Assembly: GCA_001829625.1 (NCBI GenBank)
Contig: MIBW01000012.1
Coordinates: 20,945 to 59,809, forward strand
Direction: 5' to 3'
Source of the DNA: Sulfurimonas sp. GWF2_37_8
GTDB taxonomy: Bacteria > Campylobacterota > Campylobacteria > Campylobacterales > Sulfurimonadaceae
Length of the DNA: 38,865 bases
The position numbers were made by a program, and so were the translations under genes. Under the pieces are notes generated by a model that ran no database searches, had not been told where the DNA came from, and was given only the letters and a program-made list of their open reading frames with translations. Every line of letters begins with the position of its first letter. Positions within the stretch are counted from its first letter, which is position 1. This document shows positions 2,231 through 38,865 of this stretch, piece by piece.

Positions 2231-4132
2231 ATGTTAAGTAAGTTAAGTATTCAGAAAAAGATGAATTACTTCATTTTGATGGTAACCGTATCTGTTTTCG
2301 CAGCCACTTTGTTTGTATTTTTCTCGATGCGATATATTGAGACAAAATATGAGTTTCTCCATGAAAACTCAATGAAAGGTGCTCTTGAAACACTTGAGAT
2401 AGAAAAAAGGCTCAACTATGTGAGCCGTATAACACGTGATATTATGCTCGGTGGAGAGTATAAAATAGGTATGGAGAAACTAGACAAGTCGATAGCTGAA
2501 GTCGCGATACTATTTCAAGATCTCGAAAAAATCGCAAATGATGCAAGTGCTAAGGGTATGCTCGAAGATGCAAAAACATCTACAATTGTTTTTTTAGAAA
2601 ACTCTCGTACAATGATGCAAAATCTCACCTCAGAGCAAATCGTAACTTCTAAAGAAGAGATTTATCATACATACAAAACAGAACTCACACCTTATGCCGA
2701 TGCATCAAGAATCTCATTTAAAAAACTTGAAGCTTCCAAGCAAGAAGAGTTAGACGCAGTCTCTGTTGAGCTTGCAGAACGTATCAATTTTTATAAGACA
2801 CTTATCTTTATAGTCGGTGTTTTTATTGGTATCGTTGTCTTTATAGTAGCTACGATGATTCGTATTTCTATGACAGATGGTATCAAAAACTTTACAAATC
2901 TTATCCAATACTCTGTTGCAGGTGATTTTAGTCATAAATGTTCAGATTGTACTCGGGATACAGAGCTTGGGGTGATGGGTCATGAGCTTACAAAACTTCT
3001 TGATCATATCCAATACCTCATCAATGAGATTAACTCAAGTATTGTTGATGCTTCCAATGGTCGCTTCACATACAAAATCTCAGCTGGAAGTATGGAGGGA
3101 GAGTTTGTTAAAGCAATAGAAAATGTTTCAAGAAGTATAAATTTTATGGAAACGCAAAACAAACAAGTCCAACGTGATATCTTTAATGCAAAAATAAGCG
3201 GTATGAATATTGGTGTTTCAGAATCACTTACAGTTATCCAACAAGATTTAAACGGCAATATCAATGATCTCAAAACCATCACATCTGCCACAAAAGATGC
3301 GGCACAACTCGCAGATGAGTCAAGTAAAAGTATCAACCAGATTGTTGATGAGCTCAATCAACTCAGCGATCAAGTCAATATCAACAACCACGGTATCTCT
3401 GAGCTTACAAACCAAACCAACAATATTACATCTATCATACAACTAATCACAGACATTGCAGAACAAACAAATCTCCTCGCTCTAAACGCAGCTATCGAAG
3501 CAGCACGCGCAGGTGAACATGGACGCGGTTTTGCCGTTGTTGCAGATGAAGTCCGTAAACTCGCAGAGAGAACACACAAAGCAACAGGAGAAATTTCTGT
3601 CTCTATTAAATCACTCCAACAAGATATGAATGAGATACAGACAAGTTCCGAAGCAATGAAAGTCACAGTTGAAGCTTCAGCAAACAAAATCAACAGTTTT
3701 GAGAGCACTCTTCATGAGCTTAGAAATAGTTCTTCTGATATTGTGGATTATTCATATAGTATGGAAAATAGTGTTTTTGTTGTGCTTGCAAAAATCGATC
3801 ATATTCTTTATAAATCTCGTGCTTACAACTCTATCGTAACACTCAAAAAAGTTTTACCAACAGCTACTCCGCATGAGTGCCGTTTAGGTAAATGGTATGA
3901 TGGAGAGGGAAAACGCAGGTTCTCAGCAACTACTTCATATCCACTTATCGCCGCGCCACATGCTGTTGTTCACAACAATGCAAATAAAAATCTTGAGCAA
4001 CTTGAAACAAGACCTGATTTGATACTTGATCATTCTGAAGAGATTATTCGTAATTTCACAGAGATGGAACAGGCCTCAACAGAACTGTTTGCCCTTATGG
4101 ATAGAATGCTCGAAGAGTCTAAAACTCTCTAA
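2231..4132 (+). CDS. Methyl-accepting chemotaxis protein with C-terminal CZB zinc-binding domain
   Basis: 633 residues. TM1 about 12-33, periplasmic four-helix-type sensor to about 187, TM2 about 188-210, HAMP-like linker about 210-270, second linker repeat about 280-310, then the signalling domain with the near-invariant hairpin ([19 protein letters not shown]) around 405-450. The C-terminus holds a CZB (chemoreceptor zinc-binding) domain: H524, then HECRLGKWY (H548/C550), H577 and H581 give the His3-Cys zinc set. CZB proteins are linked in other bacteria to zinc or hypochlorous acid sensing; the ligand here is unknown. Start chosen on AGGA six bases upstream of the ATG. Monocistronic, followed by a strong hairpin terminator. 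Confidence 0.95.
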
Positions 4133-23738: not shown

Positions 23739-23867
23739 AAATTCTCCTTTTTCTAAAGCAAAGCTTCATAAAAACTCTTTTCTCTAAAGAATTTTTAAAA
23801 TTGCGGAATTTTATCCAATTTGAGTTTAGATGGTGGTAAACTTAGAAAAACAATTATGGAAATTATC

Positions 23868-24827
23868 ATGAAAAATATAGCGATTTTATGTTCAGGCGGA
23901 GATGTTTCCGGTATGAATCCAGCACTGAAACATTTTGTAGAGTATGCACTTCAAAGAGGTTTAACACCCTATTTTGTTAATGACGGCTATGAAGGTCTTA
24001 TAGACAACAATATACTCAAAGCTGGTTATGAAGATGTTGCTGGTATCATCATTCGTGGCGGTACTAAGATTGGTTCAGCCCGTTCTAAACGTTTTATGCA
24101 AAGCGAATATAGAACTATTGCAAAAAAAAATCTTGACGCTCTTGCAATAGATATGTTGATAGTTTTAGGGGGAGATGGCTCTTTTCGTGGACTGCATGCG
24201 TTTTATCAGGAACACAAAATAAAATTTTGCGGCATTCCTGCAACCATCGATAACGATATCAACGGCACAGATTACTGTTTGGGTGTTGATACGGCGCTCA
24301 ATATTATCAAAGTTTCTATCGACTCTATCCGTGATACGGCATCTTCATTTAGACGTGCTTTTGTTATCGAAACTATGGGGCGCGACTGCGGTTATCTCGC
24401 ACTTGTCTCTTCACTCACCTCAGGAGCGGAGCTTTGTCTTATCCCTGAAGTTCCTTATAATTTAACCGTATATGAGCAACGATTCAAAGAGCAGATACAA
24501 AACGGCAGAAGATATTTTATCGCCGTAGTTTCAGAGGGCATCAAAGATGAGTCTCAAACTATAGCCAAATGGTTTGAAGAGAAAATAGGGATAGAGTCCA
24601 GAGTCAGCGTGCTCGGACATATCCAACGCGGTGGCAATCCTACAATATATGATAGACTTATGGCATATAAATTTATCAACCACGCCATCAACGCACTTAT
24701 AGACGGTAAAGAAGAGAGTATCATATGTTACACAACAAGTGGTTTTGAACTTCGAAGTATAGATACAGTAGTAGGTAAACGCAAAGAGTTAGACCCCGAA
24801 CTGCTATCCTTCTTGGCGAATGTTTAA
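23868..24827 (+). CDS. pfkA: ATP-type 6-phosphofructokinase PfkA
   Basis: 319 residues from ATG 23868, matching the 320 of E. coli PfkA; GGAA lies six to seven bases upstream. Earlier in-frame starts (ATG 23856, TTG 23820) would only add unmatched residues. Phosphorylates fructose 6-phosphate. GGDGS (D103, G104, S105) marks ATP rather than pyrophosphate use; the catalytic TIDND is near 126-130; the fructose-6-phosphate loop GHIQRGGNP is intact. The nucleotide loop has GGDVSGMN where E. coli has GGDAPGMN. Phosphofructokinase is absent from Campylobacter, so its presence separates this organism from that genus. A copy of its 3' end survives near 28.35 kb. Confidence 0.93.
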   Translation: MKNIAILCSGGDVSGMNPALKHFVEYALQRGLTPYFVNDGYEGLIDNNILKAGYEDVAGIIIRGGTKIGSARSKRFMQSEYRTIAKKNLDALAIDMLIVLGGDGSFRGLHAFYQEHKIKFCGIPATIDNDINGTDYCLGVDTALNIIKVSIDSIRDTASSFRRAFVIETMGRDCGYLALVSSLTSGAELCLIPEVPYNLTVYEQRFKEQIQNGRRYFIAVVSEGIKDESQTIAKWFEEKIGIESRVSVLGHIQRGGNPTIYDRLMAYKFINHAINALIDGKEESIICYTTSGFELRSIDTVVGKRKELDPELLSFLANV

Positions 24828-24875: not shown

Positions 24876-26486
24876 CCTATCACTTAATGTTATAGAGTTT
24901 TCTTCTAGTCTTTTGATTTCTGTGGACATAGTATTACTGCTTTTGACATTCTTATCGACTTCTTTGCTTATCTCGGTTATTTGATGGATAATATGGTGTG
25001 TACTATTACCTGTTTTGTGCAAAGCATCCAAAGAAATATTCATAGCCACGGTTGTGTCGTGCATCGTCTCAACGGTCAATTCGATTTGTTTTTTCGCGCT
25101 TGATGAGACTTGCGTCAGGTTTTGTATATTGCTTGCGTTTGAGTTTATCTTTTCACTTACTTCATTGATGGATTGTACTATAACGCTTATAGTGACATTG
25201 ATTTCACTTAAGCTTTTTTGTGTTCTCTCTGCCAATTTTCTGACTTCATCCGCAACAACCGCAAATCCACGTCCATGTTCACCCGCACGAGCTGCTTCTA
25301 TGGCCGCATTGAGTGCAAGTAGATTTGTTTGATCGGCGATATCATGTATTACACTTAAAACACCTTTAATCTGTTCTGCATCATTACTCAATTTTGCAAG
25401 GTCATCAACTAGTGACATTTCAACATCGGCACTATTATGTACTTCACTTATCATCTCAACAATATTTTTACTTGCCACATCTAAAATCTCGCTTACTTTG
25501 GCGATATCCTCTCTGACTTTATCCGCATCAGAAGTAGCTTCTCGTATCATTTTTATCGTTTCTTCACCATATTTTGTTGTTTGTGTGATGATATTTGATG
25601 TTTCATACATACTTTTTGACATATCTACAAAGTGTTTATCAACTTCTTGCACAATTGTTCTGTTATTTTGTGCACTATTTTTTGAATCATCAATCGCATT
25701 TCTCGTAGAAGAAACAAGGTGATTTAAACTTCCATAAATATTTGATATCTCATCTGAACCGAGTTCATTTTTGCAAAAAGTAAAATCTCTTTGTGAGTTG
25801 ATATACTCCATACTTTCTTGTAACTTTTTGATAGAATCATGAATATTTTTTACAATTAAAAAACTTATGAATATAACCAATATAAGTGAAATAATAGATG
25901 TTATAAGTATCTGATTTTCAAAACTTGAGAGCTTTGCACTGAACTCTTCGATATTTTCATTTAAAGATTTTTTTGAAAAAACGACTAACAAACTCAACTC
26001 TTCTTTGGCTTTGACTGCCACCGAATTGTATGAAGCTATCGCATCAACTTTATCTTCTGCATCTGCACTTTTATCTGTAAATTCTTCCACCATCCCGATA
26101 CCGATTGTGTTAAGCGCTCTTGTTCGCAAAGATATATTTTGCACAATGCTTTTAAGTTCTTTAAACTCTTCCATGGAAGATAAAAGTTCAAGTTTAGCGA
26201 TAGATTTGCTTAACTCTTCTTGTATATTTTTGCTCTGTATCTCATAATCACTTTCAAGCTGCAACTGAGATGCGGCAGCTGTCAAAAATACATTTTGCAT
26301 TTGCGCAATTGAGTCAGAAATATCATTGGAGACAGATATTAAACGCATCTGCTTTGACTTAAAATCCTCAAAACTGCTCTTAGAAACATTTAAAGCACCA
26401 AAGCTAATAATACCGCTAATACCCAGAGATACCAGACCTATAACGACTATAAGCCATATCTTCGCTTTAATACTTAAATGTTCCAT
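24855..26486 (-). CDS. Methyl-accepting chemotaxis protein
   Basis: 543 residues. TM1 about 10-32, helical periplasmic sensor domain about 33-188 (4HB-type length), TM2 about 190-213, HAMP-like linker, signalling coiled coil with the conserved hairpin ([19 protein letters not shown]) around 380-425. No CZB domain and no C-terminal receptor-methylation pentapeptide. Ligand unknown. Transcribed with the DUF3373 porin-like gene upstream (32-bp gap), so it may sense something that porin admits. The signalling hairpin is nearly identical in amino acids to that of the CZB receptor at 2.2-4.1 kb. Confidence 0.94.
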
Positions 26487-26518: not shown

Positions 26519-27928
26519 CTAATATGCTACGTTAAACAATAAATAAACGTTATTTAATTTATCTAAAGTTGTTGGTACAGATATCGCAGCATCCGACATA
26601 CTCATCGGTGCCCCGATTTGATATCCGCTTCCGCTGTAATCATAATCGATCATCTGAGCACCTAAACGCAGGTGTGCATAACGGTTAATCGGCTGGATAT
26701 AATAAACCTCTGTAGCAGTCCCACGAGTTGCAAGTTTGTTTGTCAAATCGTTTGAACCCTGTGTAAAACTAAACCAATTTTCACTTCCCTTATTGTACTC
26801 AACTCCGATACGAGGGTTATTTAAAACCTCTATCGGCATCGTGTATCTAGCACCTATCCAAAAAGCGTGGCCGCTGATTGTGTCTGTATCTACAGTTGTT
26901 CCAATCATGTTTGTACTCAATAGACCTACATTTGCTCCATTATAAATACTAGTTTCCCCATTAGGCTTCGCCTGAGAAATAGCATAGTGAGCAAAGATAT
27001 CTAAACCGCTGTTTTTTATGTTAGTGAACTCTGCCATGAGCGTGTAGAGCATCATGTCACCAATATTTTTATTGTCATTTGGAACATTTGAAACGATATC
27101 TGTTGCACTCACTGCACTTATTTGCAATAATGAACCATCTATCCCTAGCCCCGTATCAAAGAAAGCACCCAATACATCTGAGTCTGCAATAGCATCAGAG
27201 TCTCCGATATATGTGTAAGATGTATTTGCCTGATAACCTTTGCCATAACCAACTCTTAAAGCCATATTGTCAACACCTGTGATTTTTTGAAGATTTGCAG
27301 TTGCTACGATACCATCTGCTGCCCCGTCAAAGCTGAGTGCCGAGTAGGTAGCTTTACGCACTGTGTTATCTTTAAACTGATGTGAAGGACCATCCGAACT
27401 TGGTTGACGACCAAGGGTAAGTGTTACAGGAACATCCCCTTTAAGTACAGTCCAATCTACATAGGCTCTTTCTACAAAAATACCGCTATCAGAAGGTCTT
27501 CTTCCTTGCATAGGGTCCATGCCAGAATACAAATACGCTTCTGCTGAATCCGCCCAATTTTTATACATAGTCAAACGACCTGTAAACTTCATATCATCCG
27601 TGATATCAGAACTCATATTGAGTCTTAAACGATTTGACCATACATTTTTTGCAGAACTTTTGTCGCCTGCTGCGTCTTGCATATCAAAGTTATCCACTCG
27701 TGTTCTAAACTCTAAACCAAAATCTATCTTATCAACCATCGATTTTGTCTCAACACTATCTACACGTTCTTCAAGTTCATCACTTGCGTTTGACTGAGTA
27801 GTTTGCAACTCTGCAACTTTTTTTTCAAGATTATTAATCCTATCTAGTAACTCTGCGTTTGTGTCCGCTGCGTTTAGAGACAATGCAATCATAGATGTAG
27901 CTAGACTTAGTGTAATTATTTTTTTCAT
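26519..27928 (-). CDS. DUF3373-type outer-membrane beta-barrel (porin-like) protein
   Basis: 469 residues. Signal peptide 1-20 (ALSLNA-A), a short coiled coil about 25-60 (LLDRINNLEKKVAEL) of the kind that trimerises or binds peptidoglycan, then a long beta-rich region with alternating aromatic strands ending in a terminal aromatic residue (NVAY), the usual Omp C-terminus. DUF3373 proteins are Campylobacterota outer-membrane proteins of unknown substrate. Good ribosome-binding site AAAGGGAAAAA. Preceded by the haemless cytochrome-like gene (15-bp gap) and followed by a chemoreceptor, likely one transcript. Confidence 0.88.
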   Translation of the reverse strand: MKKIITLSLATSMIALSLNAADTNAELLDRINNLEKKVAELQTTQSNASDELEERVDSVETKSMVDKIDFGLEFRTRVDNFDMQDAAGDKSSAKNVWSNRLRLNMSSDITDDMKFTGRLTMYKNWADSAEAYLYSGMDPMQGRRPSDSGIFVERAYVDWTVLKGDVPVTLTLGRQPSSDGPSHQFKDNTVRKATYSALSFDGAADGIVATANLQKITGVDNMALRVGYGKGYQANTSYTYIGDSDAIADSDVLGAFFDTGLGIDGSLLQISAVSATDIVSNVPNDNKNIGDMMLYTLMAEFTNIKNSGLDIFAHYAISQAKPNGETSIYNGANVGLLSTNMIGTTVDTDTISGHAFWIGARYTMPIEVLNNPRIGVEYNKGSENWFSFTQGSNDLTNKLATRGTATEVYYIQPINRYAHLRLGAQMIDYDYSGSGYQIGAPMSMSDAAISVPTTLDKLNNVYLLFNVAY

Positions 27929-28324: not shown

Positions 28325-28405
28325 GAAATATTAGAAGTCGTAGATAAACGCAAAGAGTTAGACTCTAGGCTTTTATCCTACAGAAAAGTTGCTTTTAAGA
28401 GTTAG
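28325..28405 (+). pseudogene. Relic of a pfkA 3' end
   Basis: The frame 28325-28405 reads EILEVVDKRKELDSRLLSYR and a few more residues to TAG; the pfkA C-terminus reads DTVVGKRKELDPELLSFL. At DNA level 19 bases are identical (24776-24794 and 28345-28363) with further matches on both sides. Nothing upstream extends the gene. Lies between the cytochrome-like gene and purL. The remainder of 28202-28324 shows only A+T-rich upstream sequence for the operon. Confidence 0.6.
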
Positions 28406-30615
28406 ATATCTCTTTCAATAACTCTTTTGAAAGTGTTGAAATAGTTGTCTTGCAACTGTTCCATACTCATGCTGATGTCATTCACTACAATTGTGTTTCC
28501 GCCAACTGTTCCGATTTGCTCACATTTCAAGTCACCCAACATTGCTTCAAACGCAGCACAATTTTCTGGCTTAACTTCTATGATAGCACGGCTCATACTC
28601 TCTGCGAATATATCTCTTGTATCAGTTACTTGCATGCTAACATCACAGCCAAGACCTGAAGTCGCTGCCATTTTTGCTAAAGCAATAGCAACACCGCCGC
28701 TGCTTGCATCTTTAGCACACTCTAGCAAGTTTTTCTTGTTCGCTTCAATAACTAAATCCCAAAGAGCAAGCTCATTTTTGTAGTTGATTACAGGAAGTGT
28801 TCCCGCAACTGTGTGACAAATTTCTTTCATATATAAAGAACCGCCAAACTCAGACTTTGACTCACCTACTAGGTAAAGTACATTTCCCTCAGTTTGAAAG
28901 CTTGACATCAAAACATTGTTTTGGTCATCGTTTACACCAACAGTTGCGATTGATGGTGTTGGGAAAACAGAAACGCCGTTTGTTTCATTGTAAAGTGAAA
29001 CATTTCCACCAATTACCGGAGTTGTAAGCTCAGCACATGCTTCTTTAATACCTAAACAGCTTTGACCAAACTGCCACATAACTTCTGGGTTTTCAGGGTT
29101 ACCAAAGTTCAAACAGTCTGTAATTGCAAGAGGACGCGCGCCGCTCATGGCAACATTTCTGCCGCTCTCAATTACCGCAGCAGCGCCGCCGCCCATTGGG
29201 TCGATGTAGCAATAACGCACATTACAATCAGCTGACATGGCAAGTGCTTTTCCATTCTCTTTTACACGAATAACAGAAGCGTCAAGCATTCCGCCTTTCT
29301 TGATGGTATTTGTTTGAACCATAGAGTCGTACTGCGTATAAATCCACGCTTTGTCAACAACTTCCATAGATTTTGTGAGTGTCTCAAACGCCGCTTGATT
29401 AGAAACTTTTTCAAAATCATTAATTGTGACATGAGCGATTTCATCTAAATATTTTGGTCGTGTCATTGGACGGTTTAACTCAGGTGCTTCTTCGCTTACA
29501 GGATTTACAGGAACCTCAGCACATTTTTCACCGTGCCAGAAAAGTTCCATGTTGCCCGTTGCAGTTACTTCACCAATTACCGCAGCATCTAAGTCCCACT
29601 TTTCAAAAATGTCAATAATCGCCTGTTCTGAGCCTTTTTTAGCACATAAAAGCATACGCTCTTGACTCTCCGAGAGCATGAAATCATATGGAGACATATT
29701 TTCTTCACGAGCAGGAACTTTGTCAAGGTGCATAATCATACCGCTTCCTGAACGCCCAGCCATCTCAAAAGATGATGATGTAAGTCCAGCCGCACCCATA
29801 TCTTGGATACCCACAACATAGTCTGTTTTGAAAAGTTCTAAACACGCTTCAAGCAAAAGTTTTTCCGTAAAAGGGTCACCAACTTGCACAGTCGGACGCA
29901 AAGATTTTGACTCTTCTGTAAAGCTGTCAGATGACATAACTGCTCCACCAAGACCGTCACGGCCAGTTTTTGCACCAACGTACATTACAGGATTGCCGAT
30001 ACCATCCGCACGACCGTAAAAAATCTCATCTGTTTTTGCAAGACCCAAAGTAAATGCGTTTACAAGAATGTTTCCATTGTAGCACTCATCAAAACTTGTC
30101 TCACCGCCGATGGTTGGAACACCCATACAGTTGCCGTATCCACCAATTCCAGCAACAACACCACGCACTAAATAACGTTGGTGAGCAGAAATTTTGTCAT
30201 CATGCAATACATTTCCAAATCTTAATGCATTCAGGTTGGCAATAGGACGCGCGCCCATAGTAAATACGTCACGCATAATCCCGCCAACACCTGTTGCAGC
30301 ACCTTGGTAAGGCTCAATAAATGAAGGGTGGTTGTGCGATTCCATCTTAAATACAGCCGCATAACCACCGCCAATGTCAATCACACCTGCGTTTTCACCC
30401 GGACCTTGAATAACCCAAGGAGCACTTACGGGAAACCCTTTTAAGTGCACTTTTGAAGACTTGTAAGAACAGTGCTCACTCCACATAGCGGAAAAAATTC
30501 CCAACTCTACTAAATTAGGTTCACGACCTAAAATCTGTTTGATATGCGCGTAATCATCTTGAGAAAGTTTATGATTTGAGAGTTGTTTTTCGATGTCTTG
30601 AAGTTGTTGGCTCAC
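28402..30615 (-). CDS. purL: Phosphoribosylformylglycinamidine synthase subunit PurL (small type)
   Basis: 737 residues, the size of the PurS/PurQ-dependent small PurL. Motifs: [10 protein letters not shown] (near 45-55), [23 protein letters not shown] (ATP and Mg site), [15 protein letters not shown]-like [12 protein letters not shown], and [10 protein letters not shown] in the second half. Converts FGAR to FGAM using ammonia from PurQ; purS and purQ are not in the window. Start codon GTG at 30615 with AGGA seven to eight bases upstream. Confidence 0.96.
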
Positions 30616-38193: not shown

Positions 38194-38805
38194 ATGAAAA
38201 AATCATTTTTGTTTTTATTAGTTTTTTTTATATACTTCACTCCTTTAAGTGCAAAAAGTCAGAGCAATGTTCTTATCATTCACTCCTACTCTCAAGAGTA
38301 TAGCTGGACAAAAAAGCAGCATGAGAGTTTTGTTGGCTTTATCCGTCAAAATTTTAAAGCACCTTTGGAGATCTCCACTGAATATCTTGACACAAAACGC
38401 GTTGCGTTTACTCCTGAGTATAAAGAAAAATTTCGTACATATCTCCAAATGAAATATGCTGGATGTACTCCTGATCTTGTTTATGTCACAGATGACAATG
38501 CGTTGAACTTCGTGAGAGAGAGCAAGACCTCTCTTTTTTTTGAAGTGCCTGTTATATTTTCAGGTATCAACGATCTCAATCTGCAAACGCAGCTTGAACC
38601 TTCTCGTTATACAGGCGTTTATGAGATCAAAAAAATCCAAGAAAATATAAAACTGCTCAAAAGCTTTTCACCACAAACAAAAGATGTTTACTTTGTAGGT
38701 GATGCGACTGAAACTTACTCTGCGATAGAGCAAGATGTCAAGAACCAACAAAAAGATTTCTCTACAATGAAGTTTCATTTTATTCATAATGAAACTTCAT
38801 TGTAG
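38194..38805 (+). CDS. Periplasmic ABC-type substrate-binding sensor domain (artificially truncated)
   Basis: From ATG 38194 (GAGAG upstream) the product has a signal peptide of about 20 residues (MKKSFLFLLVFFIYFTPLSA), then an ABC substrate-binding fold: NVLIIHSYSQEYSWT, PDLVYVTDDNALNFV, PVIFSGIND, KDVYFVGDATETYSAIE. In this phylum such domains usually form the sensor of a longer histidine kinase or diguanylate cyclase. The frame enters a perfect inverted repeat at 38702 and meets a stop only in the reversed copy, so residues after about 196 and the stop are not trustworthy. The earlier in-frame ATG at 38164 is less likely because it would mask the signal peptide. Confidence 0.8.
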   Translation: MKKSFLFLLVFFIYFTPLSAKSQSNVLIIHSYSQEYSWTKKQHESFVGFIRQNFKAPLEISTEYLDTKRVAFTPEYKEKFRTYLQMKYAGCTPDLVYVTDDNALNFVRESKTSLFFEVPVIFSGINDLNLQTQLEPSRYTGVYEIKKIQENIKLLKSFSPQTKDVYFVGDATETYSAIEQDVKNQQKDFSTMKFHFIHNETSL

Positions 38806-38865
38806 AGAAATCTTTTTGTTGGTTCTTGACATCTTGCTCTATCGCAGAGTAAGTTTCAGTCGCAT
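38702..38865. repeat. Perfect 78-bp inverted repeat at the window end
   Basis: Bases 38702-38779 and 38788-38865 are exact reverse complements, separated by an 8-base loop, and the second arm ends at the last base. The native loop region already contains a short dyad (GTTTCATT / AATGAAAC) that could prime fold-back. Most likely an assembly or amplification chimera. Confidence 0.95.

Follow-up and report, generated by a model that had tools for sequence, protein, structure and literature searches.

The perfect palindrome that closes contig C12 of the Sulfurimonas sp. GWF2_37_8 draft genome is almost certainly an artificial fold-back chimera and not a biological structure. We base this reading on intact copies of the interrupted gene in relatives, on the continuation of that gene on another contig (C88), on a second case in which contig C10 is continued by contig C32, and on the complementarity found at the junctions. 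The window, i.e. the whole stretch of DNA analysed here (38,865 nt), corresponds to C12:20945-59809, and as C12 is 59,809 bp long the end of the window is also the end of the contig. The assembly itself comprises 1.906 Mb in 101 contigs and is 82.7% complete. Direct comparison of the two arms (38702-38779 and 38788-38865) shows complementarity at 78 of 78 positions, the right arm running flush with the final base, so that arm, loop and arm (78 + 8 + 78) take up the last 164 bases of the window. The geometry given in a preliminary description of this DNA (78-bp arms, a loop of 8 bases, a second arm reaching the final base) thus proved exact. The terminal fold is beyond chance: the energy of the folded strand lies at z = -28.6 relative to shuffled sequences, and when the same arm test was applied to 40,000 random cut positions, arms did not exceed 18 nt in all except two cases. 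Those two (29 and 44 nt) probably fall inside the fold-back of C10, which was part of the pool from which the cuts were drawn. The features of the terminal region are collected in Table 1.

Table 1. Features of the interrupted gene and the terminal palindrome (window coordinates)
Feature	Position	Strand	Evidence
Sensor gene (periplasmic, ABC_sub_bind-like), genuine 5' part covering about 200 of its roughly 510 codons	38194..38793	+	Protein identity of 88% (G016) and 77% (STC_53); PF04392 in intact homologue
Left arm, genuine, template of the copy	38702..38779	+	Arm comparison; conserved at the equivalent site in relatives
TTCATT, annealing site of the folded 3' end	38774..38779	+	Complement of AATGAA at 38788-38793; same short inverted repeat in G016 and STC_53
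Loop (TTATTCAT), authentic coding sequence	38780..38787	+	Arm comparison; junction alignment with relatives
AATGAA, common to true sequence and copied arm; inferred priming 3' end	38788..38793	+	Junction comparison
Artificial tail, 72-base reverse complement of 38702-38773	38794..38865	-	Not in relatives; true continuation is C88
Stop TAG, spurious, product of the join	38803..38805	+	ORF and junction comparison

The palindrome lies within a gene whose probable start is the ATG at 38194. Its closest homologues are found in metagenome-assembled genomes of Sulfurimonas (STC_122, 88%; STC_53, 77%), and the intact homologue in G016, a genome of the same genus as that of the window, encodes 511 aa with 88% protein identity to the window's sensor. 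The protein of the intact relative matches the Pfam ABC_sub_bind-like periplasmic domain (PF04392); reading by eye, this domain is followed by a hydrophobic, probably membrane-spanning stretch and then by a C-terminal part, for which no domain match was obtained in the G016 homologue. The label 'sensor' given earlier to the truncated gene is therefore reasonable. The gene is whole at this site in both of the relatives compared (G016 and STC_53), and neither of them carries a long inverted repeat there, which excludes a natural long inverted repeat in these two genomes. The comparison with an intact homologue that had been proposed at the outset is hereby provided, and it supports the reading as a fold-back chimera. 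A further homologue, in G008, also ends at a contig end (C91, 3,051 bp), without a fold-back.

The sequence across the junction is ...CATTTTATCAATAATGAACAG... in G016 and ...CATTATATTCATAATGAACTC... in STC_53, while the window reads ...CATTTTATTCATAATGAA followed directly by ACTTCATTG..., the true sequence ending between these two segments. As AATGAA is present at the equivalent site in both relatives, the true sequence extends as far as about 38793, and from the next base on the tail is a copy. Only T-S-L and the stop codon that follows (38794-38805) are accordingly derived from the join. The earlier statement that the stop and the last residues of the gene are products of the join holds for these, but not for the residues 'FIHNE', which are genuine.

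The missing half of the gene is found elsewhere in the same assembly. When the full G016 protein was compared with the genome of the window, residues 226-510 matched C88 from its first base with 73% identity, a value that is in part due to a run of N inside this contig. Downstream of the sensor gene, C88 and G016 carry the same next gene, and collinearity of C88 with contig C24 of G016 extends for about 7.7 kb more; C88 is also collinear with STC_53. In both relatives the distance from the equivalent of 38793 to the first base of C88 is 69 bp; no contig of the assembly spans this interval, and the putative C12-C88 join rests on synteny with the relatives. The sensor gene is thus very probably unbroken in the organism, the break having been made by assembly. 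The run of N comprises 84 bases (C88, locus L099, 148-231) and falls within the 3' half of the same sensor gene, which means that assembly ran into difficulty twice at this locus.

These observations bear directly on the possibility that the palindrome is a real, covalently closed hairpin end of a linear replicon. Although a perfect palindrome flush with the end of the sequence is what such an end would look like, here it interrupts a gene, and C88 carries the rest of that gene and the genes downstream of it in the order of the relatives, where the region is internal; the palindrome is hence not the true end of a replicon. Moreover, an unrelated gene on C10 shows the same kind of fold-back, and the arm sequences of C12 and C10 are unrelated to each other, leaving no common telomere motif between the two. 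We regard a hairpin end as having a practically negligible probability. Nor is there any sign of a viral end, as similar DNA was absent from phage records and the natural sequence of the junction had no exact match in viral contigs.

A palindrome scan of all 101 contigs, taken piecewise, revealed flush perfect fold-backs at 2 of the 202 contig ends, namely those of C12 (78-bp arms, 8-nt loop) and C10 (locus L013, 7441-7597; 72-bp arms, 13-nt loop). No perfect palindromes of this kind occur in the interior of any of the scanned contigs, and the only other perfect arms of at least 20 nt are a pair on C51, with arms and loop of 24 nt each, and a 35-nt pair lying 774 nt apart on C8. The fold-back of C10 falls where a histidine-kinase-like gene begins, just beyond a gene for a chorismate-binding protein of 312 aa (PabB-like, by reading). 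The histidine-kinase-like gene is whole in G016, and residues 32-466 of its product are found on C32 from base 3 with 93% identity, the continuation beginning about 67 bp beyond the C10 junction. The true sequence of C10 ends with TTTT, the complement of AAAA located 13 nt upstream, which amounts to a complementarity of at least 4 nt.

The second case also weighs on the view that the palindrome reflects a real chromosomal inverted duplication or inversion, fixed or present in a subpopulation. The natural short inverted repeats (TTCATT...AATGAA) could nucleate such events in cells too, e.g. in a minority of cells with hairpin-mediated inverted duplications arising at natural inverted repeats of 4-6 nt and sampled as two contig ends. 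Yet both cases, unrelated to each other, are flush with contig ends and have their true continuation elsewhere, none is found inside contigs, and the second arm never enters new sequence. Nor does the structure resemble invertible DNA, in which inverted repeats surround unique DNA: only the 8-nt loop separates the arms, and the long repeat expected for such an element is absent from the relatives. A real duplication or inversion is thus very improbable, and the minority-of-cells version of it has an equally slim chance. The preliminary description had ranked a real hairpin end or inversion below an artefact, a ranking that the continuation on C88 and the second flush case on C10 bear out.

The artificial fold-back, then, combines perfect arms (78/78) and a small loop (8 nt) with a few complementary bases linking the true 3' end to its new template (AATGAA/TTCATT), and the sequence comparison with the intact homologues and C88 places the junction outside the real chromosome. 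The end of the true C12 sequence, AATGAA, pairs with TTCATT 8 nt upstream, and this short inverted repeat is natural in both relatives. That the true ends of C12 and C10 are complementary to bases 8 and 13 nt upstream, respectively, is the mark of a self-primed, snapped-back 3' end. In the mechanism we propose, a single-stranded 3' end at about 38793 (...TTATTCATAATGAA-3') would fold back over the 8-nt loop, its last six bases annealing to TTCATT (38774-38779), and a polymerase would extend the folded end, copying its own strand to at least 38702. The assembler, following the chimeric molecules beyond the sensor gene, would then stop where the path becomes its own reverse complement. The true chromosome continues with the remainder of the gene, which the assembly places at the beginning of C88. 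The polymerase step and its timing, be it during whole-genome amplification, end repair or read joining, are inferred. The similar lengths of tail and gap (72 and 69 for C12; 68 and 67 for C10) may point to read length or the assembler as a common influence.

Taken further, these lengths could reflect a common read-length or k-mer geometry and thus a pure assembler artefact, in which the assembly of the contig ran on into its own reverse strand and no chimeric molecule was involved; the near absence of exact overlaps between contig ends also speaks in its favour. However, the natural inverted repeats of 4-6 nt are too short to join the strands in a k-mer graph, and as the turn of the strand requires a joining sequence, chimeric reads or misjoined read pairs would still be needed. 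We therefore consider this explanation unlikely. An arm length of one k was ruled out, the arms being unequal (78 versus 72), and among the contig ends we found no exact overlaps of a fixed k that would name the assembler.

Similar artefacts have been described. Among the chimeras formed in multiple displacement amplification (MDA), 85% are inversions, primed by short complementarity at the 3' end, which at most junctions comprised 2 or more and as many as 21 bases (Lasken & Stockwell 2007, PMC1855051). The fold-backs of C12 and C10 share with them the inverted join, a short deletion (here the loop) and the short 3' complementarity; loops as short as theirs (8 and 13 nt), however, point towards self-priming through a hairpin, and the same study judged that this is not a main route in MDA (PMC1855051). 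With their tiny loops and 4-6 nt of terminal complementarity, the two fold-backs are consistent with a self-primed 3' end, an event that can occur both during whole-genome amplification and during the end repair of a library. In the PDSM model, naturally occurring short inverted repeats give rise to fold-back reads during end repair (PMC10908179), which join a strand to its own complement as in C12, but these artefacts are low-frequency reads in human libraries and ours are contig ends. Artificial palindromes are also common after amplification (Pacasus, PMC6218980); they too are self-complementary fragments in which a polymerase has copied its own product, but they occur in long reads, while the arms here measure about 75 bases. 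Of the preliminary description's account, the fold-back chimera at a contig end is upheld by the intact homologues, C88 and C10; the MDA or long-read cause that it named is not established.

In practice, bases 38794-38865 (about 72) are to be trimmed, and their relevance is one of data quality only. The truncated sensor protein should not be taken for a pseudogene or a short protein, and both C12-C88 and C10-C32 can be scaffolded. A perfect terminal palindrome flush with a contig end offers a simple screen for fold-back errors in draft genomes.

Two other repeats were noticed in the window. A 44-nt direct repeat (80% identical) connects 24767-24810, at the 3' terminus of a gene resembling 6-phosphofructokinase (ORF 23820-24827), with 28336-28379, which lies between a porin-like ORF (26519-27928) and a PurL-like ORF (28402-30615); the copy at 28336-28379 reads VVDKRKELDSRLLS, lacks the remainder of the gene, and is perhaps a relic of a duplicated end of the 6-phosphofructokinase-like gene. 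A 155-nt inverted repeat (77%; 3452-3606 and 25189-25343) simply reflects the conserved signalling domain shared by two methyl-accepting chemotaxis proteins encoded on opposite strands.
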